Positions 5,936 through 64,000 of a DNA stretch of 64,000 nucleotides are shown here, in pieces. Location of the stretch: positions 3,782,001 to 3,846,000 of the forward strand of contig NZ_CP139368.1 of NCBI RefSeq assembly GCF_034120055.1, read 5' to 3'. Below the pieces are notes generated by a model, which was not told the DNA's origin, did not search any database, and saw nothing but the letters and a program-made list of their open reading frames with translations. Position numbers and translations under genes: made by a program. Position 1 is the first letter of the stretch. The number at the start of each line of letters is the position of its first letter. Source of the stretch: Microbacterium rhizosphaerae. GTDB taxonomy: Bacteria > Actinomycetota > Actinomycetes > Actinomycetales > Microbacteriaceae.

Positions 5936-7525
5936 ATGCCCTCTCTCGACGTCGCTCACGCGTTCTACGACGTGCTTCGCTCCCACGGCGTGACGCGCAT
6001 GTTCGGCAACCCTGGATCGAACGAGCTCACGATGCTGAAGCATCTTCCGGACGACATCGAATACGTCCTGGCCCTGCAAGAGGGCGCGGCGGTCGCAATG
6101 GCCGACGGGTACGCACAAGCTTCCGGTTCCCTCGGCGTGGTGAACCTGCATTCTTCGTCGGGTACCGGCAATGCCATGGGCAATCTCACCAACAGCGCCG
6201 CCGCGCATGTCCCGCTTCTCGTGATCGCCGGGCAGCAAAGCCGACGGTACGTTCCCCTCAACGCCATGCTCACCAATCTCGACGCGACTCGGCTGGGCGA
6301 TCCGCTCATGAAGTGGTCGGCCGAGCCGCTCCGCCCGGAAGACGTACCGCTCGCGGTCTCGCAGGCCGTCCTGCTGGCGGAGTCCGCACCCACCGGACCG
6401 GTGTTCGTCTCGGTGCCACTGGATGACTGGGATCGCCCGGCGGATGATCGCGCCTCTGCCCACCTGACGCAGAGGACCGTGTCGGGTACACCCGTCCTCG
6501 CCGACGTGAGCGTCGAAGCGATCGCTGCGGCGCTCGACCAGGCTTCTGCACCTGTCCTCGTGCTGGGGCCGGGAGCAGACACCACTCACGGCTGGGAAGC
6601 GACGCGCCTGCTCAGCGAACATCGTGGGATGCCGGTCTGGGTTGCTCCCAGTCCGTCGCGGGCGCCCTTCCCGACGCGGCATCCGTACTTCCGCGGGGTC
6701 CTCCCGACGGGCTTGGGGGACGTTGCTGACGTCCTCTCCGAACACGATCTGGTGCTCACGATTGGCGCGGCGGTGTTTCGCTATCACCAGTTCGTCGACG
6801 GCAGTCCGCTGGCTTCCGGAACTCTGCTCATCGGCATCACGTCCGATCCGAGCGAAGCCTCGCGAGCGGCAGCTGGAACGCTCTACGTGGGAGATCCGTG
6901 TGACGCCGCGGTTCGGCTGGCCGCCCGAGTGAGGGAGGGAGAGCAGTCCGCGTCAGGGGTCGTCGAGATCGTCGACGCTCCGACCTCCGTCAATGGCCGG
7001 TACTCGGCGCACGCGATTCTCGATGCCGTGGATGCCGCCAAGCCCGACGATTCGGTGATCGTCCTCGAGTGGACATCCGCCGATACTCTCTGGGCCAGGC
7101 TGACTTTCGACAGCGCACAGTCTTACTACTTTCCCGCGAACGGCGGACTCGGATGGGGGTTGCCGGCATCCATCGGTGTTCAGCTCGCCAACCCTGATCG
7201 CCCCGTTATCGCGCTCATAGGCGACGGAGCCATGCAATACACGCCCTCGGCGCTGTGGACGGCCGCGCGCTACCAGGTTCCCGTGACATTCGTGATCGCG
7301 CAGAACGAGGAGTACGGCGCGCTGCAGCGCTTCTCGCGGATCATGCATGTGCCTGACGCCGGGTACCTCGACCTAGACGGCCTCGACCCCGTCTCGATCG
7401 CCAAAGGTTACGGCATCGACGCGTGCGAGCTCGCCGACATCGATCAGCTCGAACAGTTCGTGAGAGCTGCGGGGTCTGCCACGGGGCCACGTCTCGCCGT
7501 CGTCCCTCAACTCTCGCAGCGCTGA
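5936..7525 (+). CDS. mdlC: Benzoylformate decarboxylase (thiamine diphosphate enzyme)
   Basis: 529 residues from ATG 5936, 17 bases after the aldehyde dehydrogenase stop; an upstream in-frame ATG at 5876 lies inside that gene and is rejected. It closely matches the remembered Pseudomonas enzyme over its length: FGNPGSNEL with Ser28, LQEGAAVAMADGYAQAS with thiamine-activating Glu49, LHSSSGTGNAMG with His72, FPTRHPYFRG, and FRYHQF with His284. These correspond to the known active-site Ser26, Glu47, His70 and His281. The thiamine-diphosphate motif GDG (429-431) ends at Asn457, where the usual NN is QN. Reaction: benzoylformate to benzaldehyde and CO2, cytoplasmic. A role in mandelate or phenylglyoxylate breakdown follows from the enzyme family and neighbours. 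Confidence 0.92.
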   Translation: MPSLDVAHAFYDVLRSHGVTRMFGNPGSNELTMLKHLPDDIEYVLALQEGAAVAMADGYAQASGSLGVVNLHSSSGTGNAMGNLTNSAAAHVPLLVIAGQQSRRYVPLNAMLTNLDATRLGDPLMKWSAEPLRPEDVPLAVSQAVLLAESAPTGPVFVSVPLDDWDRPADDRASAHLTQRTVSGTPVLADVSVEAIAAALDQASAPVLVLGPGADTTHGWEATRLLSEHRGMPVWVAPSPSRAPFPTRHPYFRGVLPTGLGDVADVLSEHDLVLTIGAAVFRYHQFVDGSPLASGTLLIGITSDPSEASRAAAGTLYVGDPCDAAVRLAARVREGEQSASGVVEIVDAPTSVNGRYSAHAILDAVDAAKPDDSVIVLEWTSADTLWARLTFDSAQSYYFPANGGLGWGLPASIGVQLANPDRPVIALIGDGAMQYTPSALWTAARYQVPVTFVIAQNEEYGALQRFSRIMHVPDAGYLDLDGLDPVSIAKGYGIDACELADIDQLEQFVRAAGSATGPRLAVVPQLSQR

Positions 7526-7630
7526 CCCCACAAGAAGATCCGCACTGAGCCGCTCACCGCGGATGACACAAGAGAACACAGCTTGCCAGCAAGGGCGGAC
7601 CGACCGCCCAGCTTACAAGGAGGTAACAGC
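7526..7630 (+). promoter_or_regulatory. Spacer with stem-loop and very strong ribosome-binding site
   Basis: Downstream of the decarboxylase there is an ATCCGC/GCGGAT inverted repeat (around 7538-7564) and a GGGCGG/CCGCCC-like hairpin (around 7591-7608). An AAGGAGGT at 7617-7624 precedes ATG 7631 at ideal distance. This shows that a further gene of the operon once started here. Confidence 0.6.
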
Positions 7631-7686
7631 ATGACGATGTCCCAGACGCGGCGAGCACTCACTTCGGTACGGTCGAAAGAATCCCT
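7631..7686 (+). pseudogene. 5' remnant of a fourth operon gene, cut by the IS21 element
   Basis: ATG 7631 follows an ideal Shine-Dalgarno and opens a frame MTMSQTRRALTSVRSKESL that runs into the IS left end at 7687. Removing the IS and one TCCCT copy gives only four more residues (IKRN) before TGA at 9841, so the gene had apparently already lost its body or was further deleted at the right side. Position after the decarboxylase suggests an uptake transporter, but 23 residues do not allow a call. Confidence 0.6.
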
Positions 7687-7751
7687 TGTCGGCGGCGCTC
7701 GAAAACTGGACAGTAGCGGCGCTCGAAAAGTGAACACTCAACGATTGGAGA

Positions 7752-9760
<2,009 letters not shown>

Positions 9761-9822
9761 ACTGCCCGCAACCGTTCACAATTCGAGCGCCGAAAGCGAC
9801 CAGGATTCAGGCGCCGCCGACA

Positions 9823-10120
9823 TCCCTGATCAAGCGGAATTGAGCATTCTGCCCGCGGGCGGACTCGCAATCTCGCGACGCCCTCCACACACTTCAGAAT
9901 CGCTAAGAAACGAGCTGCTCAGAATGCTCGGGGTCACTTGGGGGTCACCTGGTTCTCGGCGCATCCACGACTCGACACCGATCCGCACGCGGGCATCATG
10001 CGGTCGAGGATCATATCGCGGACAGCAGCTGACACTCACGTTGCCAGCTGCGTACAGGCACTGCGCGGTCGAAGAGCGGTGGCGAATGACGGTGGGAATG
10101 TCGGCTACCTCCGCGTCCGC
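9823..10120. other. Non-coding debris right of the IS
   Basis: About 300 bases between the IS and the glycoside-hydrolase remnant. Open frames exist but have no ribosome-binding site and no recognisable protein character. It probably holds decayed sequence of the gene begun at 7631 or a deletion junction. Confidence 0.4.
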
Positions 10121-10845
10121 CTATCGCGCCTGGAACTCGACGAGAAACACCGACTGAGGTGCGAGGTCGAAGTCGAGCTGGATGTCGCCCGCGTCGGACA
10201 CCCGTGAATCGCTGGGGCCGTGGACGGCTCCTGTCGTCGAGGTGCGCGTGATGCTCACTGTTCGCCCAGCCCAAGGGAGGTTGCGAATGTCCACGCGGGC
10301 GGATGCGACACCCGCTGACGCCAGTTCTCGCCGTTGCGGAGGCAGGGCGAAGCCGAGCTCGATGCGCTGCGCGCCGATGGGGATGCGGAATGTGAACCGA
10401 TCTTCCTCCCGTTCGACGAGCGCCGCGTCGGGCGCGACGTAATTGGCCACGAGCACGCGCACCACATCTCCGTCCCGACCGGCCGCGCAGGCGAGACCCG
10501 ATTCGTCGCCGCCGGTGACCGCCAGGCGGTGTCCCCTGAGCGCTCGTCCGGCGAGGGCGAGCGCGCGGGACCGTTCATCGGGGGCGTCGTCCGCCGTTCC
10601 GACACCGGCCGGATCCACGAAGCCGTAGTGCGGGTCGCGCCCGCTGTCGGCGCGGAAGAAGAACGCGTGATCGATGACGGTGTCCTGGAGGTAGATCGCC
10701 GTCGCCGCCTGGAATGCGCCCTTCTCAGCGGCCGGCGCGGAGCTACTGGGAACGGCGAGGTAGTTCCAGTAGCAGAGCGTCAGGTCGGTGTCTGTGAAGC
10801 CGTGACGGTCGAGCAGGGCACGCAGTTCGGCAGACACGGAGCGGG
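10121..10845 (-). pseudogene. C-terminal fragment of a glycoside hydrolase (GH39-like)
   Basis: The minus-strand frame ending at 10121 encodes about 240 residues resembling the last part of a TIM-barrel glycoside hydrolase plus its beta-sandwich tail: LCYWNYLAVPSS, a 'KGAFQAATAIYLQDTVIDHAFFF' helix/strand and 'RLAVTGGDESGLACAAGRDG' followed by 'VRVLVANY' are typical of GH39-like xylosidases. The acid/base part of the barrel and any start codon are missing: homology ends near 10845, exactly where the plus-strand TetR gene begins, and the frame's in-register ATG at 10900 is inside TetR antisense. So the gene has lost its 5' half. Family assignment is moderate. Confidence 0.6.
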
Positions 10846-10847
10846 TC

Positions 10848-11423
10848 GTGGATGCCACGATCCGCCTGCTGACCGAGCGCGGCGATGGGGACTTCACCAT
10901 CGCCGAGGTGAGCGCGTATGCCGGCGTGGCTGTTGGAACCGTCTATGGGCGAGTGGGGAACAAGGAATCTCTACTGCTTGCCGTTCACGAGCGGGAGCTC
11001 ACCCGGATGGACCGCGAGACCGTCGCTCAGCTGGGCGCGGCGTCCGGGAGCGGCTCCACGCTGCGCGAAGCGATCGGTGCGGTGATAGCGGCCCGGACCA
11101 CAACACTCGCAGCAGAAGCTCCCCTTCTGCGCGCACTGATGCGGGTCGCCGTCGATTACCCGGCGATCTCCCGGCGAGGTCGCGAATCAGGTCTCATCGC
11201 GCAAAGCGCGTTTGTCGAAACTTTGACGGCGGTGTGCCGGCGGTTCGGCCTCGATCTCGCGGGAGAAGACGTGGAATGGGCGGACGAAGTGACTTATGCT
11301 GTTGCGGCGCGACAGCTCAGCATCGAGCTCGCCGATAGGGGCGCACCGATGCGAGTTATCCCTCTTGAGAGGCTGACGGCGCGGCTGACAGACACCATCA
11401 CGGCGTATCTGTCGTCTCAATAG
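10848..11423 (+). CDS. TetR-family regulator with shortened N-terminus
   Basis: 191 residues from GTG 10848. The HTH is complete (FTIAEVSAYAGVAVGTVYGRVGNKESLL, about residues 15-42) and is followed by a helical ligand-binding domain. The first helix starts late (MDATIRLLTERG), about ten residues shorter than usual. Upstream in frame are SSADTERVV-type codons that look like the true N-terminus but have no start codon before a stop at about 10810. This gene and the glycoside-hydrolase remnant are both truncated at the same junction, suggesting a deletion or inversion joined them. It may still be expressed, but function is uncertain. Confidence 0.7.
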   Translation: MDATIRLLTERGDGDFTIAEVSAYAGVAVGTVYGRVGNKESLLLAVHERELTRMDRETVAQLGAASGSGSTLREAIGAVIAARTTTLAAEAPLLRALMRVAVDYPAISRRGRESGLIAQSAFVETLTAVCRRFGLDLAGEDVEWADEVTYAVAARQLSIELADRGAPMRVIPLERLTARLTDTITAYLSSQ

Positions 11424-46336: not shown

Positions 46337-46606
46337 ATGCCAGAACGTCAAGCCACCATCGCCAGCAGCTCGGGGCTGCACGCCCGGCCGGCGAAGCTCT
46401 TCGTGCAGGCCGTGCAGCAGAAGGCGGTCCCGGTCACGATCGCGGTCGCGGGCGGCCCGGACCTCAACGCCGGCAGCATCCTGTCCCTCATGGGACTCGG
46501 CGCGGCGCACGGCTCGGTCGTGACGCTCAAGGCCGAGGGCGACGGCGCCGACCAGGCGCTCGACGAACTCGTCGTGCTGCTGGAGACGGATCTCGACGCC
46601 GAGTAG
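46337..46606 (+). CDS. ptsH: Phosphocarrier protein HPr
   Basis: 89 residues. Phospho-His15 in SSGLHARPA, and NAGSILSLMGLGAAHG around the Ser46 region. Carries phosphate from enzyme I to FruA. Last gene of the fructose operon, 38 bp after fruA, followed by a strong terminator. Confidence 0.95.
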   Translation: MPERQATIASSSGLHARPAKLFVQAVQQKAVPVTIAVAGGPDLNAGSILSLMGLGAAHGSVVTLKAEGDGADQALDELVVLLETDLDAE

Positions 46607-46615
46607 CCGCTCCGG

Positions 46616-46657
46616 ACGACGGATGCCGCGGGCCCTCGGGTCCGCGGCATCCGTCGT
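46616..46657. terminator. Bidirectional terminator between ptsH and hydrolase
   Basis: A perfect 16-bp stem (ACGACGGATGCCGCGG and complement) with a 10-base loop. It begins ten bases after the ptsH stop and abuts the stop of the convergent hydrolase. Confidence 0.85.
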
Positions 46658-47539
46658 TCACGCGAGAACGCGGTGCAGGAACTCCACCTCGGCGCCGCCG
46701 ACCGTGTCGAACAGGGCCGACCGCTCGTGGAGCAGGCCGAAGTGCCCGCCCTCGATGCGCAGGAGCTCGCCGCCTGCGGCGGCGCACCCATCCCGCGCCA
46801 CGCCGGGCTCGGCGCCCGACATCGCGTCGTCGTCCGCGACGACCCACAGCGACGGGCATGCGATGTGCGGGGCCAGGATGCTCATCGTGAACGGCGCCGG
46901 CGCGCGCAGCGACGCCATGCGCGCCGTGTTGCGCCAGGTCGATCCGGGCCGCATCCCGTACTCGCCGAACCAGGCGGCCGCCGACGGGTCGGTGAGCAGC
47001 GGGTCCGCGTCCGCGCGATCCAGTGCGACGACGGGATGCGGGTCGCCGATGCGGGCCGTCGTCGGATCGACGCTCCGCGCGAACTCCGCCAGCGCCATGA
47101 ACTGCGAGCCGTCGGGATCCGGCTCTCCGAAGCTCGTCCCGCACGCGGGCACCTGCACGACCAGCGCCGCGATCGCCGGATACATCGCCGCGAGCGCCGC
47201 CGACACCGCCCCGCTGAAGCTGTCGCCCCACAGGGCGATCCGCGATGCGTCGACCGCCTCGTGCGACCGGACGAACGCGACCGCATGCTGGTAGCCGCGC
47301 AGCTGCAGCCATCTGCTGATGACGCCGGGCTCGCCGCCGCTGCGCCCGAATCCCTCGTGGTCGAACAGCAGAACCGCGAAGCCGGCCGCGTGCAACACCT
47401 CGGCGTAGTCGTCGACGACCATGCCGAACGCCGTGCACGAGAAGCCGTGGGTCATGACGACCGCCGGCCGCGGTTCGTCGTGGGCGTAGAGCCGGCCGCG
47501 GATCGTGGCCGCAGCGCTGGGGAACGAGACATCCATCAT
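46658..47539 (-). CDS. Alpha/beta hydrolase, acyltransferase/esterase-like
   Basis: 293 residues from ATG 47539 (or the next codon at 47536), seven bases after the LacI gene stop, so co-transcribed with it. THGFSCTAFG oxyanion region, 'DHEGFGRSGGEPG', nucleophile Ser107 in LWGDSFSGA, Asp in LWVVADDDAMSG and His in EGGHFGLLHE. The long upstream extension of the frame lies in the LacI gene and is rejected. Substrate unknown; probably hydrolyses a compound sensed by the regulator. Confidence 0.85.
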   Translation of the reverse strand: MMDVSFPSAAATIRGRLYAHDEPRPAVVMTHGFSCTAFGMVVDDYAEVLHAAGFAVLLFDHEGFGRSGGEPGVISRWLQLRGYQHAVAFVRSHEAVDASRIALWGDSFSGAVSAALAAMYPAIAALVVQVPACGTSFGEPDPDGSQFMALAEFARSVDPTTARIGDPHPVVALDRADADPLLTDPSAAAWFGEYGMRPGSTWRNTARMASLRAPAPFTMSILAPHIACPSLWVVADDDAMSGAEPGVARDGCAAAGGELLRIEGGHFGLLHERSALFDTVGGAEVEFLHRVLA

Positions 47540-57815: not shown

Positions 57816-58064
57816 ACGGTACCGCGCGGCCCCTCCCCCGTCCGGGATTCAGTCTCCTCGACCTGCGGGTGCCGGTGGATGGCCGACTCGGTGCCTACCA
57901 GCGCGCGGCCGGACTGAATCCTGAACCGCATGCGCGGACCGAGGCACGAACGGGCATGGGGCCGAACGGGCGCCGACCGGCGCCGACCGGCGCGGGTCGG
58001 GACTGAATCCCGAACGGGGCATCGGGGCGAGCGCCGCCGCGGTCGGCGGGATACTGTGGGCGAC
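57816..58064. promoter_or_regulatory. Divergent spacer with three GACTGAATCC repeats
   Basis: The 249-bp spacer between DUF1304 and the LysR-domain gene contains GACTGAATCC at 57912-57921 and 58001-58010, followed both times by a C/T then GAAC, and in inverted form at 57845-57854. Between are CGACCGGCGC repeats (57970-57995). Looks like repeated protein-binding sites or an extragenic repeat. Confidence 0.65.
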
Positions 58065-58847
58065 ATGGCGAACGGCAGGCAGAGCGGCCCGCGCCCGGGC
58101 AAGCCCGGCGGAGGCAAGCCCGGCGGAGGCAAGCCCGGCGGAGGCAAGCCCGGCGGAGGGACGCCCGGCCCAGGCAAGCCGGGCGGAGGGAAGCCGACGA
58201 AGAGCAAGCCGCGGCAGCCGGCCGCGCCTCAGCCCGTCATGCCGGAACCCGAGCCGGCCGAGTCGTTCACCCTCGGGGCGGTCCCGGGCGCGACGCCCGG
58301 CAAGTGGATCGACATCTGGAACGAGCGGATGCCGCGCACCCGCCTCGACCTCGTCCCCGTGAGCGTCGCCGAGCAGCGCGACGCACTGCTGCGGGGTGAG
58401 GTCGACGCGGCGCTGGTGCGGCATCCGATCGATCAGGACCGCCTGCACGTCATCGGGCTGTATGACGAGGTCGCCGTGGTTGTCGTCGCCGCGGACTCCC
58501 ACCTCACCGCCGCCGACGAGCTCGACGCCGCCGATCTCGAGGGCGAGGTGCTCATCGTGCCGCAGGACGACGTGCTGCATCTCGAGGTCGACGGCACGGT
58601 CGCGCCGCGCTTCGATCCGCCCGAGACCACGGCCGACGCGATCGCCGCCGTGGCGGCAGGGGTCGGCATCGTGATCGTCCCGATGTCGCTGGCCCGCCTG
58701 CATCACCGCAAGGATGCCGCGTACCGGCCGCTGCGCGACGCTCCGTCGTCACGCGTCTCCCTCGCATGGGTCGCCGATCGCACGACCCCCGAGGTCGAGG
58801 CGTTCGTCGGGATCGTGCGCGGCCGCACCGCGAACTCCTCCCGCTGA
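58065..58847 (+). CDS. LysR-type effector domain without HTH, with KPGGG-repeat N-terminus
   Basis: 260 residues from ATG 58065. Residues 10-50 consist of about seven KPGGG-type units and a Lys-rich end (KPTKSKPRQP), a basic disordered tail. The rest resembles the LysR substrate-binding domain: 'TLGAVPGATPGKWIDIWNERMPRTRLDLVPVSVAEQRDALLRGEVDAALVRHP' and 'DAIAAVAAGVGIVIVPMSLARL'. There is no DNA-binding HTH. Similar proteins exist in actinobacteria from memory, function unknown. The basic tail could contact nucleic acid or membrane. Confidence 0.85.
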   Translation: MANGRQSGPRPGKPGGGKPGGGKPGGGKPGGGTPGPGKPGGGKPTKSKPRQPAAPQPVMPEPEPAESFTLGAVPGATPGKWIDIWNERMPRTRLDLVPVSVAEQRDALLRGEVDAALVRHPIDQDRLHVIGLYDEVAVVVVAADSHLTAADELDAADLEGEVLIVPQDDVLHLEVDGTVAPRFDPPETTADAIAAVAAGVGIVIVPMSLARLHHRKDAAYRPLRDAPSSRVSLAWVADRTTPEVEAFVGIVRGRTANSSR

Positions 58848-58895: not shown

Positions 58896-59002
58896 GCGAA
58901 TCGAGCGTGGGCTCGCGAATCGAGCATGGGCTCGCGTCGCGCGTGGGCTCGCGAATCGAGCGTGGGCTCGCGAATCGAGCGTGGGCTCGCGAATCAAGAC
59001 GG
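58896..59002. repeat. 19-bp tandem repeat, about 5.5 copies
   Basis: Units of GCGAATCGAGCGTGGGCTC begin at 58896, 58915, (a 17-bp variant at 58934), 58951, 58970 and a partial one at 58989. Unit junctions form the palindrome GCTCG-CGAAT-CGAGC, so the array can fold into several small hairpins. It lies between converging genes. Confidence 0.9.
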
Positions 59003-59012
59003 CGCACGAGAG

Positions 59013-59054
59013 GCGGGGGATGTCGCCGACCTGGGTCTCTGCGACATCCCCCGC
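59013..59054. terminator. Terminator-like inverted repeat
   Basis: Perfect 14-bp inverted repeat GCGGGGGATGTCGC with a 14-base loop, after the 19-bp repeats. No U-tract. Could terminate the plus-strand LysR-domain transcript or act from either side. Confidence 0.65.
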
Positions 59055-59141
59055 GGATACGACGTACGGGCGATCGGCACTCCCCATGTGCCCCCCAGTG
59101 ATCCTCCGCTGCCCCCAGCAATGCGGGTGTTCCCCCCGGAC

Positions 59142-59180
59142 CCCGCTCTGTGCAACGCCGTTCCACAGTGTCAGAGCGGG
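59142..59180 (-). terminator. Stem-loop downstream of the CHAT operon
   Basis: CCCGCTCTG and CAGAGCGGG form a 9-bp stem 28 bases after the CHAT stop on the minus strand, with an inner CTGTG/CACAG pairing. Confidence 0.55.
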
Positions 59181-59207
59181 TGCCCCTACCCCTGATACAC
59201 GGAATCT

Positions 59208-61685
59208 TCAGAAACCTGCGCCGTGCACCTGGAACGACGAGACGAGGCCCGTCCGCGCTGATGCATCCGCGAGCGCAGCCGACGGCGTGAGCCCCGCGAC
59301 GAGGCCCGCGTGCATGGCGCCGAGCAGTTCGCAGGCGATGTCGTCCGCGACGATCACGGGGGTTGCGACGACGGCGTGCGTCCCCGCATGCAGCCACACG
59401 CGCGTCATCCCGACGGCCTCCTCGCCCCACCGCACGGAGGACCGGCCGACCTCGCAGGACGACAGCACGACGATCGACGGCACCCGCGGGATGCGATCCA
59501 CGTCGTAGCCGAACAGCGTGCCGTCGGCGAGCTCCATACCGGAGAACAGCGGGTTGGATGCGGCATGCCGCCCGTGCGCCGCGACGTGCAGGACGCCGAC
59601 CTCCGCGGCCAGGTCGGCCACCGCATCCACCGTCGCGTCCTGCCCGCGGAGCACCCGGGCGGACGGCCAGACGGAGGCCGCCGCATCCGTCTCCTCGTCC
59701 CCGCGAGCGACGCGGGGGCCGACCGCGAAGCCCGCCGTCCGCGCCGTCGCGGCGCCGGTGTGGGCGACCCATCGCGTCACCGACGCGGCGATGGTGAATT
59801 CGCGCCCACGCAGCGCGGGGAGCATCGCCCACGGCAGCCCGCCGAGGACGCCGGGCACCGTGATGACGATCCGCTCGGCACCGGCGAACGCGACCGCCTC
59901 CTCGAGCAGCGCCGTCGAGATCGCGGCGAGCCGGTCGTCGAGCGTGCGCTTGACGACCTCGACCATGGGGCCGGAGTGGATCGAGGCCGCCATGTCGAGG
60001 TCGGCGCGGAGCCCCGGCAGCATCCGGTGCACCGCATTCCAGCCCGGCAGATCGATGATCCTCGCGCGATCGCGCGTGAGGACGAGAGCTGTGAGCACGT
60101 CGCCGGAATAGACGAAGTTGAGCAGCGCCGTGCGGTCGTCCAGCGCGTCGCGCAGGGACTCGAGCGTGACGCGACGATGGATGCCGGCAGCCCCCGTCGC
60201 GGACCACTGGCGCTCCCGCGCGCGCTCCTCGAGCGCCGCAAGCCGAGGATCGCGGCGCCACGCGCCGGTCGGATCGTCGGCGCGCAGGTGGCGCAGCTCG
60301 GCGAGGTCGGCGGCCAGCTGCGGGTCCCGCGGCGGACGGATCGCGACCACCTGCTGGCTGAGGTGTCGGGCGCGCTCGGACCATTCGAAGAGCACATCGG
60401 GGCGCCGTGTCCGCACGGCCGATGCGAGCCCCGCGACGATGAGGTTGCGACCGTGCGCCGACAGCGACGTCTGCAGGTCGAGGCTGCCGAACGCGGCCTG
60501 CCACTCGGCGAGCTCGTCGAGCCCCGCCGACACGTGCCGGCGCACCTCGGCCTCGCGACCTGCGGCGACCGCACGCTCGGCCCGCGCCTCGTGGGCGAGC
60601 AGGCGCACCTCGAGCGAGGCGGTGCGCGGCACGCGCAGCACGCGCGTGCCGCTCGGGCCGGCCTGCGGATGCCGCGACCGCCAGATGTCGAGCGACAGCC
60701 GGAGCGCGGCGGCCTCGCTCGCGAAGCCGAACCCGTCGAGGGCGGATGCCACCGCCTCCGCCTCTGCGGGGTCCACGGCCCGCCGCGGCTCGGGCACGGG
60801 CCCACTCAGCGCGGGCGCGCCGGCCGCCAGTTCGGCGCGGAGGCGGATGGCGTCGGCCCGCGCCGCCCATGCCTCGTTGCCGACCGTGCGGAATCGCTTG
60901 GCGGATGCCGCGGCCGTCTTCCGGGCCTTCGGCGGGTCGTGCATGAGCTGCGAGCGCGCCAGCTGGAACTCCGTCTCGGCGCGCGACTGCGGCATGCGAT
61001 GGCGACCGAAGATCGGGGCGGATGCGGCGAGCAGCGCCTCCGCTTCGCGGGTCTGCCCCGCATCCCGCAGCACCTCCGCCCGGTCGATGTCGCAGATGGC
61101 GGCTGCGACGGGGGATGCGGCAGCCAAGGGCCGTGCCGCGAGCATCCCCTGCAGGGCCGACACGAGATCGCCCCGAAGAAGCTCGACGTACGCGCGGTTG
61201 TGCTGCGCCTGGCCTTGCTCGACGGTCAGCCCGGCCGCCGCGAACGTCTCGATCGCCGCGTCCATGTCGGCTATCGCGCCGTCGAAGTCCTGCATCTGGA
61301 GTGCGACCATGCCGCGGCTGAGCAGCATGCGGGCGGCCTCGACCGTTCCGGCTCCCAGGCCCTCGATCGCCGCGCTGAGCCGTTGCTGAGCCTCGACCAG
61401 CCGCCCGTTGTACATCGCAAGCGTTCCCACCTGCCCGAGGATGGCCGCCCGGGTCCGGTCGCTGAGCCCCACGATCCTCGAGGCCGCAAGGGCGACGTCC
61501 TCGGCCTCGTCGGGGTGACCGGTCCGCTGGAGCACCACTGCACGAGTGCCGAGGATGCGCGCACGCATGTCGGGATCCGGATCGCCTGCCTCAGCCAGAT
61601 CCAGGGCATGCGAAGCCTCGGCATACCGACCGCCCATGCTCAGAGCAACAGCGCGCCGATGCCAGGACTCCCCGGATCGAGACAC
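59208..61685 (-). CDS. TPR-CHAT caspase-like protease
   Basis: 825 residues from GTG 61685. Residues about 1-520 are helical TPR-like repeats (for example GRYAEASHALDLAEAGD, GHPDEAEDVALAASR, GRLVEAQQRLSAAIEG, QDFDGAIADMDAAIETF). The C-terminal third is a CHAT domain: 'ERIVITVPGVLGGLPWAMLP', catalytic His704 in LHVAAHGRH, and catalytic Cys744 in VVLSSCEVG. There are no signal peptide or membrane segments, so it is cytoplasmic. CHAT proteases are cysteine peptidases of caspase type that are usually activated by partner proteins. It is the third gene of a minus-strand operon after a small protein and a subtilase, 119 bp downstream of the latter. Confidence 0.92.
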   Translation of the reverse strand: MSRSGESWHRRAVALSMGGRYAEASHALDLAEAGDPDPDMRARILGTRAVVLQRTGHPDEAEDVALAASRIVGLSDRTRAAILGQVGTLAMYNGRLVEAQQRLSAAIEGLGAGTVEAARMLLSRGMVALQMQDFDGAIADMDAAIETFAAAGLTVEQGQAQHNRAYVELLRGDLVSALQGMLAARPLAAASPVAAAICDIDRAEVLRDAGQTREAEALLAASAPIFGRHRMPQSRAETEFQLARSQLMHDPPKARKTAAASAKRFRTVGNEAWAARADAIRLRAELAAGAPALSGPVPEPRRAVDPAEAEAVASALDGFGFASEAAALRLSLDIWRSRHPQAGPSGTRVLRVPRTASLEVRLLAHEARAERAVAAGREAEVRRHVSAGLDELAEWQAAFGSLDLQTSLSAHGRNLIVAGLASAVRTRRPDVLFEWSERARHLSQQVVAIRPPRDPQLAADLAELRHLRADDPTGAWRRDPRLAALEERARERQWSATGAAGIHRRVTLESLRDALDDRTALLNFVYSGDVLTALVLTRDRARIIDLPGWNAVHRMLPGLRADLDMAASIHSGPMVEVVKRTLDDRLAAISTALLEEAVAFAGAERIVITVPGVLGGLPWAMLPALRGREFTIAASVTRWVAHTGAATARTAGFAVGPRVARGDEETDAAASVWPSARVLRGQDATVDAVADLAAEVGVLHVAAHGRHAASNPLFSGMELADGTLFGYDVDRIPRVPSIVVLSSCEVGRSSVRWGEEAVGMTRVWLHAGTHAVVATPVIVADDIACELLGAMHAGLVAGLTPSAALADASARTGLVSSFQVHGAGF

Positions 61686-61804
61686 GACTACATCTTCTCG
61701 CGGATCATTCCCCTGCGTGCGTCGGCCGGACCCAGGGGCCGGGCCACGGGAAGCGAGGCGCCCGAACCGTCAACCGGAACGCCTGGACGGGCGTCCCGTC
61801 CCCG

Positions 61805-63517
61805 TCACTGCTCGCTCGGGGCCACCGCCACCCCCGCGTGCGTCTTCTCCAGGTGGGCCGCGACCCCCTTCAGCAGGGCGATGCGCGCCGCCCGGTCGAC
61901 CTCTCCGCCCATGAGGTGCTCGGAGAGGTGAGATGCGAGCAGCCCTGCGATGTGGGGCGCTGCGAACGAGGTCCCGCTCCACAGTCCGAACCCGCCCGTG
62001 CAGTCATCCGGGTCGATCGTCTCGCGGCGGAGGCCGTACCGATCGTTCCGAGTCCCCGCCTGGATGCCGCCATTGAACGGAGGCGTCGTGCTCAGCACCG
62101 AGACTCCGGGGGCGTACACCCGCACCCATCCACCGATGTTGCTGAACAGCGCGACCGTACGGTGGTTCGGATTGAGCGCCCCCACCGAGAGGTGCGGCGC
62201 CACGTCGTCCGGATCCTCGACGACGAAGTCCGCACCGGGCCAGTCCCACAGCGCGGCGGGGAATGCCGGGCGATCCGTCGCGTCGTTGCCGGCAGAGCAC
62301 ACGACTGCGCACCCCTGCCGGCGCGCCGCCACGAGCAGCTCGGACAACGTGTGGTCGAAGAGCTCGTCCTCGGGAGTCTCGTGGTAGTAGCCGAGCGACA
62401 TGTTGATCACGTCGATCCGGCGCCCGCCCTCGTCCTCGGGGGTCGCCATCCACCTGACGAGTGACCGCACCGCCATCATGAAGTCGCCTTCGAGAAGCAC
62501 GCCGGCGCTGTTCGCCACGCGGACCGCGATGAGGTCGGCCTCCGGTGCGAGCTGGCGGATGATCCCCGCGATGAAGGTGCCGTGCCCGGATGCGGGGTCG
62601 ATGGCCCCGTCGAACTGTCCGATGAGGTCGCCGTGCAGCTCGGGATCGGTCGCCGCGCGGTGCTCGCCGATCGCATGACCGTCGAACGAGGGCGTCCGCG
62701 TCACGATCTCGTCCGTCAGCCAGGGATGCACGCCGCATCCGGTATCGAGAATGGCCACGACCGGACGGCGTCCTTCGGACGCCAGCGCCCCGGAACGCGC
62801 GGGAGCCGGCCCGATGTAGTCGACCACCTGTCTTCCGCCGCTGCCCGGCTGGGCGTAGCTGTCGGTACCCGGCGCGTTCGTGCCGCCGAAAGGGTTCGTG
62901 CCGCCGAACGGGTTCGTCCCGCCGAAGGGGTTCGTCCCCCCGAAGGGATTGGTCCCGCCGAACGGGTTCGTCCCCCCGAAGGGGTTCGTCCCCCCGAACG
63001 GGTTCGTCCCGCCGAACGGATCGATGGTGAGCACATGGTCGAGGCTGACGCCGGGCACATCCGGCTTGCCGCCGTTCGTGCTGACCCGGGCCCGGGCGCG
63101 CTGCAGCAGGCGCCAGGCGTCGATCGGCGGCACCGGCTGATCGTCCTTGTCGGGGCTCGGCGCCGGGAAGATCGACACGCGGTGCACCGTGGGAAGGTCG
63201 AGCGCATCGCGCCAGCGGCGCGCACGGGCCGACGCATCCTCCCGGCTGACCGGCGTGCCGTCCATGTTCTGCAGCTCGATGCCCCAGCCGAAGTCCGACG
63301 CGGCCTCCCCCAGCAGGTCGAGCAGCGCGTCCAGCGCTCCGTCGGCGACCGTCACCAGCAGGTGCGACCGGTCGTACGAGGTCGGATAGGCGTTGACCCC
63401 CTGCACAGGCTCACTGGCCGGATCGAGCGGCACGCCCTGCGCTCGGGCGGCGTCGTACCGATCACGCCAGGAAGCGGCCGGGCGGTCAGCGGACGAGTCG
63501 GGGGGAAGGTCTGTCAT
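61805..63517 (-). CDS. S8 subtilisin-like protease, cytoplasmic, with eight NPFGGT repeats
   Basis: 570 residues from ATG 63517. N-terminal domain (1-160) has no signal peptide and an alpha/beta prodomain-like character. Residues 166-213 are DPFGGT plus seven perfect NPFGGT units. The protease domain follows: Asp258 (AILDTGCG), His312 (SGHGTFIAGI), oxyanion Asn411 (SAGND) and Ser517 (GTSFAAPHIAG); all are intact. Most subtilases are secreted; lack of an export signal and partnership with a CHAT protease suggest an intracellular regulatory protease. Starts 15 bases after the upstream gene stop. Confidence 0.93.
   Translation of the reverse strand: MTDLPPDSSADRPAASWRDRYDAARAQGVPLDPASEPVQGVNAYPTSYDRSHLLVTVADGALDALLDLLGEAASDFGWGIELQNMDGTPVSREDASARARRWRDALDLPTVHRVSIFPAPSPDKDDQPVPPIDAWRLLQRARARVSTNGGKPDVPGVSLDHVLTIDPFGGTNPFGGTNPFGGTNPFGGTNPFGGTNPFGGTNPFGGTNPFGGTNAPGTDSYAQPGSGGRQVVDYIGPAPARSGALASEGRRPVVAILDTGCGVHPWLTDEIVTRTPSFDGHAIGEHRAATDPELHGDLIGQFDGAIDPASGHGTFIAGIIRQLAPEADLIAVRVANSAGVLLEGDFMMAVRSLVRWMATPEDEGGRRIDVINMSLGYYHETPEDELFDHTLSELLVAARRQGCAVVCSAGNDATDRPAFPAALWDWPGADFVVEDPDDVAPHLSVGALNPNHRTVALFSNIGGWVRVYAPGVSVLSTTPPFNGGIQAGTRNDRYGLRRETIDPDDCTGGFGLWSGTSFAAPHIAGLLASHLSEHLMGGEVDRAARIALLKGVAAHLEKTHAGVAVAPSEQ
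62879..63022 (-). repeat. 18-bp tandem repeat encoding (N/D)PFGGT, eight units
   Basis: Eight consecutive 18-bp units in the subtilase gene (AACCCGTTCGGCGGG plus ACG type on the minus strand), nearly identical at DNA level with scattered silent differences. In-frame, so copy number can vary without loss of the protease domain. Confidence 0.95.
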
Positions 63518-63532
63518 CGCCTGTCCTCAAGG

Positions 63533-64000
63533 TCACACTTCGAACTGCGGGGTCTGGAAGTCGTGGAGGTCGCCTCCCTCGTCTCGCACGGCCAGCTTGA
63601 GGCGCGACACACCGGCAGGGACGCCGTCGAAGGCGAAGCGGCCGTGCTCGCCGAGCTCGGCCGGCAGCTCCCGGGTGGCCTGGACGAGGCGGACCGCGAG
63701 GGCCGAGGCATCCACCCATCCGTCGATCCGGTGCTTGCCCGACTCGGTCTGCGTGATGTGCAGCAGCACGGTCGTGGTGCCGTCGCTGAACTGCAGCGTC
63801 ATGGTGTCCGAATCGCTGCGGGTGGCGGCGAGGTTCGTCTCCACGAGCGTCAGCAGCGCGTACTCCCGCGACAGGTCCTCCACGGCGACCGCCGCCACCA
63901 TCCTGTCGACGAGGTCGGCCGGCATCGGGTCGACGTCCTCCCACACCGAGCGAAGTCGTGCGAAGAGCGCGGCATCCGCCGCGAAGTCCTCAGTTTGCAT
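63533..64000 (-). CDS. Small protein of the CHAT/subtilase operon, unknown function
   Basis: 155 residues from an ATG at the window edge (64000), so it could start further upstream. The first half is helical and acidic ('ARLRSVWEDVDPMPADLVDRMVAAVAVEDL'), the second beta-rich, with 'TMTLQFSDGTTTVLLHITQTESGKHRIDGWV' and 'HGRFAFDGVPAGVSRLKL', reminiscent of a carboxypeptidase-regulatory-like beta-sandwich. No catalytic motif. As the first visible gene of the operon it is a candidate sensor, inhibitor or substrate of the two proteases. The helical start resembles anti-sigma or sigma-linked small proteins only loosely. Confidence 0.75.
   Translation of the reverse strand: MQTEDFAADAALFARLRSVWEDVDPMPADLVDRMVAAVAVEDLSREYALLTLVETNLAATRSDSDTMTLQFSDGTTTVLLHITQTESGKHRIDGWVDASALAVRLVQATRELPAELGEHGRFAFDGVPAGVSRLKLAVRDEGGDLHDFQTPQFEV

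Follow-up and report, generated by a model that had tools for sequence, protein, structure and literature searches.

What brings two proteases of different families, neither with a visible export signal, together in one operon? The question is raised by one end of a 64,000-nucleotide stretch of Microbacterium rhizosphaerae DNA (Actinomycetota; Microbacteriaceae; NZ_CP139368.1, positions 3,782,001 to 3,846,000), hereafter the window; the host genome is a single contig of 4.06 Mb. Three minus-strand genes predicted there in a first-pass annotation were recovered as open reading frames (ORFs), namely a small protein gene (63533-64000, 155 aa), an S8 subtilase gene (61805-63517, 570 aa) and a TPR-CHAT protease gene (59208-61685, 825 aa). 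A sigma-factor or regulator gene had been suspected just upstream of the window, and a gene for an extracytoplasmic function (ECF)-type sigma factor was found at that place on the same strand. It overlaps the small gene by 11 bases, its 3' end lying at 63990-64000 and the whole gene at 63990-64700 in window numbering (7990-8700 of L003, the fetched stretch with the home cassette; 236 aa from the longest start). The product matches Sigma70_r2 (34.8 bits) and TIGR02937, sigma70-ECF (44.9 bits against a cut-off of 42.9). Our best model, held tentatively and at somewhat less than an even chance, is that these genes form an autoregulated switch made of an ECF sigma factor, its small partner and two cytoplasmic proteases, which resembles the Csx29-Csx30-sigma system without CRISPR. 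The observed parts of the model are the gene set and its order, a shared promoter-like site, the catalytic residues, a covarying hairpin and the conservation of repeated words at the protein level.

When the small protein was used as a single query, 6 of 150 genomes of the family were matched. A small-protein profile matched 25 of 398 family genomes. Of these, the 18 with near-full-length matches were kept; the seven whose matches were weak and partial were dropped, as was a second, incomplete match in genome G127. Sigma, small, S8 and CHAT genes stand on the same strand and in that order in all 18 near-full-length loci, three of the CHAT genes being truncated by contig ends. In locus L011 (G106), S8 and CHAT are separated by an opposite-strand block of about 4 kb (7243-11260), in which TetR-like, phosphatase-like, ABC permease, ATPase and binding proteins were recognized by eye.

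A scan of named genomes returned 51 loci with a close relative of the small protein, labelled Microbacterium (49), actinomycete metagenome-assembled genome (one) and Planococcus (one). The Planococcus record (L151, JASDDH010000029.1) carries a Microbacterium-type cassette with a small protein of 73% identity and is probably mislabelled or contaminated. All four genes were found in 47 of the 51 loci, and the incomplete ones (L137, L151, L158 and L166) all lie at contig ends. The gene order is kept in 45 of the 47 complete Microbacterium loci; L126 and L155 place CHAT before S8. At L155:7314-12852 (Microbacterium elymi) the sigma, CHAT and S8 matches are broken into overlapping frames, as decayed genes or frame errors would be. 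The idea of a protease cascade in the first-pass annotation was to be dropped if the three genes were rarely neighbours. They are neighbours in the family and in Microbacterium, as a conserved set headed by a sigma factor, and since it is conserved, this neighbourhood is beyond chance.

In a sample of the phylum, the profile matched 36 of 396 genomes, 30 near full length (six genomes with weak partial matches only and a partial second match in G106 were left out). In 28 of the 30 loci the small gene is immediately preceded by a sigma gene of the same orientation. Within the fetched stretches (about 11-19 kb), as judged for the protease-free loci by profiles from six family sequences, both proteases are present in 18 loci, CHAT alone in three and neither in nine, seven of which have the sigma gene. 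A Pfam search around these nine loci showed the contig to be free of CHAT matches in eight cases, and in G338 the CHAT match is at a distance of 27 kb; two genomes with protease-free sigma-small pairs, G528 and G532, lack any CHAT match. Gene order is variable outside the family. When the N-terminal domain of S8 was searched for, with the best 11 candidates per genome scored, 8 of 396 genomes were matched, all within about 5 kb of a small gene. Because the pair also occurs without proteases while sigma nearly always adjoins the small gene, sigma and small protein are the core pair and the proteases a frequent addition. Two loci, L046 (G499) and L047 (G246), consist of tandem modules. L046 reads S8, small, CHAT, small, S8, CHAT, sigma, small, giving three small, two S8, two CHAT and one sigma gene within the fetched stretch. 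These repeated modules duplicate the small gene but not sigma, which ties the small protein to both sigma and proteases.

The small protein had been described as beta-rich and as a sensor, inhibitor or substrate of the proteases. A model from 42 sequences (predicted local distance difference test score 85.2, predicted template modelling score, pTM, 0.58) has an eight-stranded beta-sandwich (66-149) and also two N-terminal helices (4-23 and 30-56) and a low-confidence stretch (56-62). As for the role, the protein tracks sigma (28/30) more than the proteases (9/30 protease-free), which favours a part in sigma control over a sensor, inhibitor or substrate of the proteases alone. The window's own protein has no Pfam match. 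Among the 42 small proteins, 20 match the carboxypeptidase regulatory-like domain (CarboxypepD_reg, PF13620) at E ≤ 0.1 (best 1.6e-7), the window's protein not being one of them, and no anti-sigma family is found in the Pfam matches of the 42. No membrane segment was seen by eye. Because sigma and small gene pair up, we consider the small protein a candidate soluble anti-sigma factor; the fold test gives no help.

Of 92 loci, 71 carry a site of the form GTATC[AG]-N15-17-CTC close to where sigma starts (spacing 16 in 56). All 55 Microbacterium loci are among them, together with 16 of 37 from outside the genus, against 49 of 1920 random 360-base windows drawn from these loci. With a looser rule, 70 of 72 core-bearing loci have it, and it also precedes protease-free pairs (e.g. 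L048, L052 and L056). We read it as the putative promoter of the sigma factor itself. A second such site, TGTATCA-N16-CTC, lies directly 3' of the CHAT stop in the window (59174-59199, minus strand). Among Microbacterium loci, 47 of 51 have it within 130 bases past their last CHAT match, as do 2 of 20 loci from elsewhere; of the four Microbacterium misses, L138 and L155 do show one after CHAT, and L143 and L153 remain. Where CHAT comes ahead of S8 (L126 and L155), the second site stands between the two and not behind the last gene.

Behind the second site is a region of about 150 nt (59006-59171 in the window, minus strand, with a hairpin at about 59013-59054), which we regard as a putative sigma-dependent non-coding RNA region. 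It aligns in 46 loci, with conserved G-rich blocks, the motif GGAACGGCtC and a terminal hairpin. The best hairpin is offset from the second site by 123-144 in 37 of the 46 loci. For folding, an alignment of 36 loci was used (A8), made up of 35 of these 37 (without L098 and L135) and L003, whose hairpin was placed by hand as the script had chosen another. In these 36 loci 99.3% of cells pair and 8 of 12 pairs are changed on both sides; none of 500 shuffles was as good, and no slid version has more than 68.5% of its cells paired. The region is probably non-coding because its indels, inspected by eye, are not multiples of three. A search of L003:2700-3300 against Rfam gave five matches, every one below its gathering score. 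An RNA covariance model, whose training set includes the window's region, matched the untrained loci L118, L123, L136, L138 (twice), L140 and L156 at E ≤ 2.8e-10 and found nothing in three Microbacterium genomes that lack the small gene (G462, G686 and G770). L138 (M. allomyrinae) has a partial second CHAT followed by a second site and a second RNA match of its own.

The S8 protein matches Pfam Peptidase_S8 at 92.3 bits (residues 249-534; catalytic domain at 61916-62773). The full triad noted earlier was located at Asp258, His312 and Ser517, invariant in 39 aligned relatives, and the export signal reported as missing was likewise not visible to us by eye in the small, S8 or CHAT protein. The best NCBIfam match is the type VII secretion system mycosin TIGR03921 (73 bits), from which the cassette S8 differs in falling far below the equivalog cut-off of 278.75 and in having its own N-terminal domain, a repeat-word linker and no visible signal peptide. 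In PADLOC it matches a generic subtilase model (3.1e-10) and, weakly, IetS (9.2e-05). EACC1 (Effector Associated Constant Component 1) was weakly matched by one of the 39 relatives (E 0.046), which is chance level.

Alignments place the N-terminal domain (PTxY...DAWxLLQ...LDHV) at 63026-63397. It is joined to the catalytic domain by eight (D/N)PFGGT words (62876-63022; residues 166 to 214), the first of which is DPFGGT. A tandem array of words at this junction was observed in 28 of 35 distinct cassette S8 proteins, in 49 of 50 Microbacterium S8 frames that contain the serine motif (the exception is a piece of 178 residues) and in 85 of the 112 relatives of 480 residues or more found in the database. 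The cassette proteins lacking it are the short f5-family members L063, L065, L066, L068, L070 and L071, plus L058. No array was found in eight other S8 proteins of three of the same genomes (G000, G489 and G106), seven of which start with an export-signal-like stretch by eye; these eight came from nine regions, the ninth having yielded no protein. Word arrays are thus a family-wide feature and no local oddity. The units are 5-8 residues long, rarely 10-12, and vary in number, and the words differ by species (NPFHST, NPYGGKT, NPFTG, HPFWGG, GYGDGV and more).

Within 49 Microbacterium arrays (2797 codon pairs), synonymous differences amount to 36.1% and non-synonymous ones to 0.9%, and in another set of 29 arrays, one counted twice, the proportions are 0.424 (pS) and 0.0000 (pN); the detection of arrays prefers identical residues, which somewhat overstates identity and underestimates non-synonymous change. 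In 28 arrays synonymous differences reach 0.302, and random codons taken from the operon concerned give 0.390. To judge from these codons, most arrays are not accounted for by recent slippage. Because the words are near-identical within a protein while their synonymous codons have diverged, we infer selection for sameness.

Some further observations concern the words. The tandem modules include a case of two S8 word types within one locus, and L132:8527-11804 has two separate S8 matches in one cassette, with the words NPFGKT and NPFTRT. L138:15488-15733 (plus strand) encodes a short protein that begins like a signal peptide and contains five different NP-words of the same pattern as the S8 linkers (NPFGQSN, NPYGSTN, NPHSKTN, NPFTGN and NPHGMTN); it has four database relatives (P0243-P0246). 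A search for this protein matched 186 of 247 Microbacterium genomes at E ≤ 1, from which five were kept at E < 1e-13. All five carry the cassette small gene, but in four of them it does not lie within about 9 kb of the word protein. In the three genomes with a resolved NP-type S8 word, the secreted words exclude the genome's own S8 word.

The CHAT domain of the third protein (59259-59924; residues 588-809) gives 75 bits in Pfam and TPR_12 gives 38.3 bits, and the predicted His704 and Cys744 were located. When residue patterns were applied to the CHAT proteins, the His pattern was missed in nine (three of them cut) and the Cys pattern in four, in all of which a cysteine is nevertheless visible. 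No PDB relative was detected by phmmer, and PADLOC has no match for the CHAT or small protein. A second CHAT protein of 913 aa (L004:9412-12153, genome C1; CHAT 88.7 bits), with membrane-like segments by eye, matches a solved structure (8tl0, 4.3e-13) and is not known to have an S8 or small-protein match as a neighbour.

The first-pass annotation knew of no characterised function for this arrangement, which a 2022 review had already described: section 3.3 of PMC8999054 notes a subtilase, CHAT and a 'carboxypeptidase' in the surroundings of ECF54 sigma factors and suggests that sigma is controlled by proteolysis, with no experiment on it in that section. The gene arrangement itself is therefore not new and is known in outline. 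The cassette shares with ECF54 an ECF sigma factor of mainly actinobacterial distribution, subtilase and CHAT genes in its context and the proposed proteolytic control, a likeness drawn here from gene context. It differs in that the review has a carboxypeptidase and no anti-sigma factor, whereas here a sandwich protein is fixed beside sigma; repeat words, promoter pair and RNA do not appear in section 3.3. We suggest that the PF13620-like domain of the small-protein family may be the 'carboxypeptidase' of the ECF54 descriptions.

In type III-E CASP/Craspase systems, as described in parts of PMC10028731, Csx29 (TPR-CHAT) cleaves the sigma inhibitor Csx30, and CASP-sigma is the third partner. 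There too a TPR-CHAT protease, an ECF-type sigma factor and a third protein adjoin, and the mechanism proposed here likewise has a sigma inhibitor being cleaved. The small protein, however, has 155 aa and Csx30 is much longer (residues up to 565), an S8 protease is added, and the CHAT protein has no phmmer match to any PDB chain. No Cas genes were noticed by eye in the ORF lists around the cassette, where no Cas or CRISPR-array search was made. The cassette resembles the Csx29-Csx30-CASP-sigma logic; membership is not claimed. Protease-released anti-sigma factors such as RseA and RsiW, named in the same paper, are likewise encoded directly downstream of sigma, often overlapping it, and protease-gated release is also proposed here, but our candidate has no membrane segment by eye and no anti-sigma Pfam match. 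Searches of the open-licence literature yielded no report on the pairing of the small protein with sigma, on the repeat words, on the two promoter-like sites or on the RNA. What is added here is the sigma-small core pair with its candidate anti-sigma factor, the word arrays, the promoter pair and the candidate RNA region.

In the proposed switch, the two helices of the small protein would hold sigma, and its beta-sandwich would receive a signal or the protease. Upon a cue, the TPR-CHAT protease (or S8) would cleave or remove the small protein, as Csx29 does Csx30. Freed sigma would then transcribe its own operon, giving more proteases and positive feedback, and also the RNA of about 150 nt beside CHAT. 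S8 would probably be inactive until its N-terminal domain is removed, and the identical words at the junction may be partner docking or cleavage sites rather than a mere spacer. The S8-CHAT cascade suggested earlier is possible, the words being placed where cleavage of a zymogen would be expected. A bolder version, which we regard as a long shot, is a CRISPR-free counterpart of Craspase in logic. The small protein would represent a new class of soluble anti-sigma factors destroyed by TPR-CHAT, and the sigma-transcribed RNA would serve the protease as an activator or regulator. The S8 words would be a strain-specific recognition code that small secreted proteins of the genus also carry in mixed form, which could let the switch respond to a neighbour's signal.

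Several points weigh against the proposed switch, and they bear on its rivals. Section 3.3 of PMC8999054 holds that ECF54 has no anti-sigma factor and that the proteases act on sigma; in our case S8 and/or CHAT would degrade it and keep the system off. The common operon of proteases and sigma agrees with this proposal, and so does the outcome for the docking of sigma and small protein, which was not confident when AlphaFold2 was given one read-through chain of both from the relative L069 (pTM 0.42; shallow, mostly unpaired input alignment). We nevertheless consider it unlikely, as 7 of 30 loci have the sigma-small pair with neither protease in the fetched stretch, and where the proposal names a carboxypeptidase, the small family, presumably the same protein, matches a carboxypeptidase regulatory-like domain (20/42). 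The same protease-free pairs speak against a protease effector system, in which the small protein would be an inhibitor or substrate of S8 or CHAT, activation would lead to growth arrest or cell death and sigma would merely provide inducibility. This reading, which we also find unlikely, is favoured by the extra small genes beside one sigma in L046 and L047 and by the proposed immunity systems of PMC8195603, in which caspase and trypsin-like proteases occur together with genes for ECF sigma factors and TPR proteins; PADLOC, on the other hand, returned the generic subtilase and weak IetS matches and nothing for CHAT or the small protein.

The promoter and RNA parts of the switch meet difficulties of their own. 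The site is absent from 21 of 37 non-Microbacterium sigma loci, and six genomes hold 104 sites against 50 of the reversed pattern, about 11 of the 104 lying within cassettes. The RNA model matches only three of nine cassette-bearing genomes, once each in G000, G489 and G718, all three its training sequences, and misses G106, G648, G745, G057, G127 and G561. Among 18 untrained Microbacterium loci it matches six strongly and two at E 0.013-0.017 and misses ten, and a partial weak match (E 0.0038) lies elsewhere in the window at 46578-46664. The hairpin alone could be an operon terminator, being strong, GC-rich and right behind the last gene in most operons, and the second site could be a remnant or serve as a regulatory operator; consistent with this, Rfam offers no family above its threshold. 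We lowered the switch model slightly and raised this alternative because the genome matches are training sequences and many loci are missed, and it is now a serious possibility, at somewhat less than an even chance. Against it speak the similar distance from site to hairpin with conserved sequence between them, the position of the site after CHAT and ahead of S8 in L126 and L155, and the site and RNA match of the second CHAT in L138. That the words are a mere flexible linker expanding by slippage would suit their low-complexity position between two domains, the varying number of units and five arrays with few synonymous differences that may be young (L053, L054, L067, L069 and L099), but the codon comparisons of both array sets and the comparison with random codons make it rather improbable.

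Beyond the cassette, the divergent gene before sigma encodes a class-I glutamine amidotransferase. The next large ORF past CHAT is convergent (57930-58847, plus strand) and has a GKPGGG repeat stretch near its start, and direct repeats of about 19 bases adjoin near 58930-59000.

What was a short entry in a sigma-factor review can now be put to the test as a circuit, made up of a putative promoter, a protein that may inhibit sigma, the two proteases and a possible RNA. Should the small protein prove to be the inhibitor, protease-gated sigma release by caspase relatives would extend beyond CRISPR. The sameness of the words within a protein, their difference between species and their diverged codons point to an unusual selection, and call for a binding partner.

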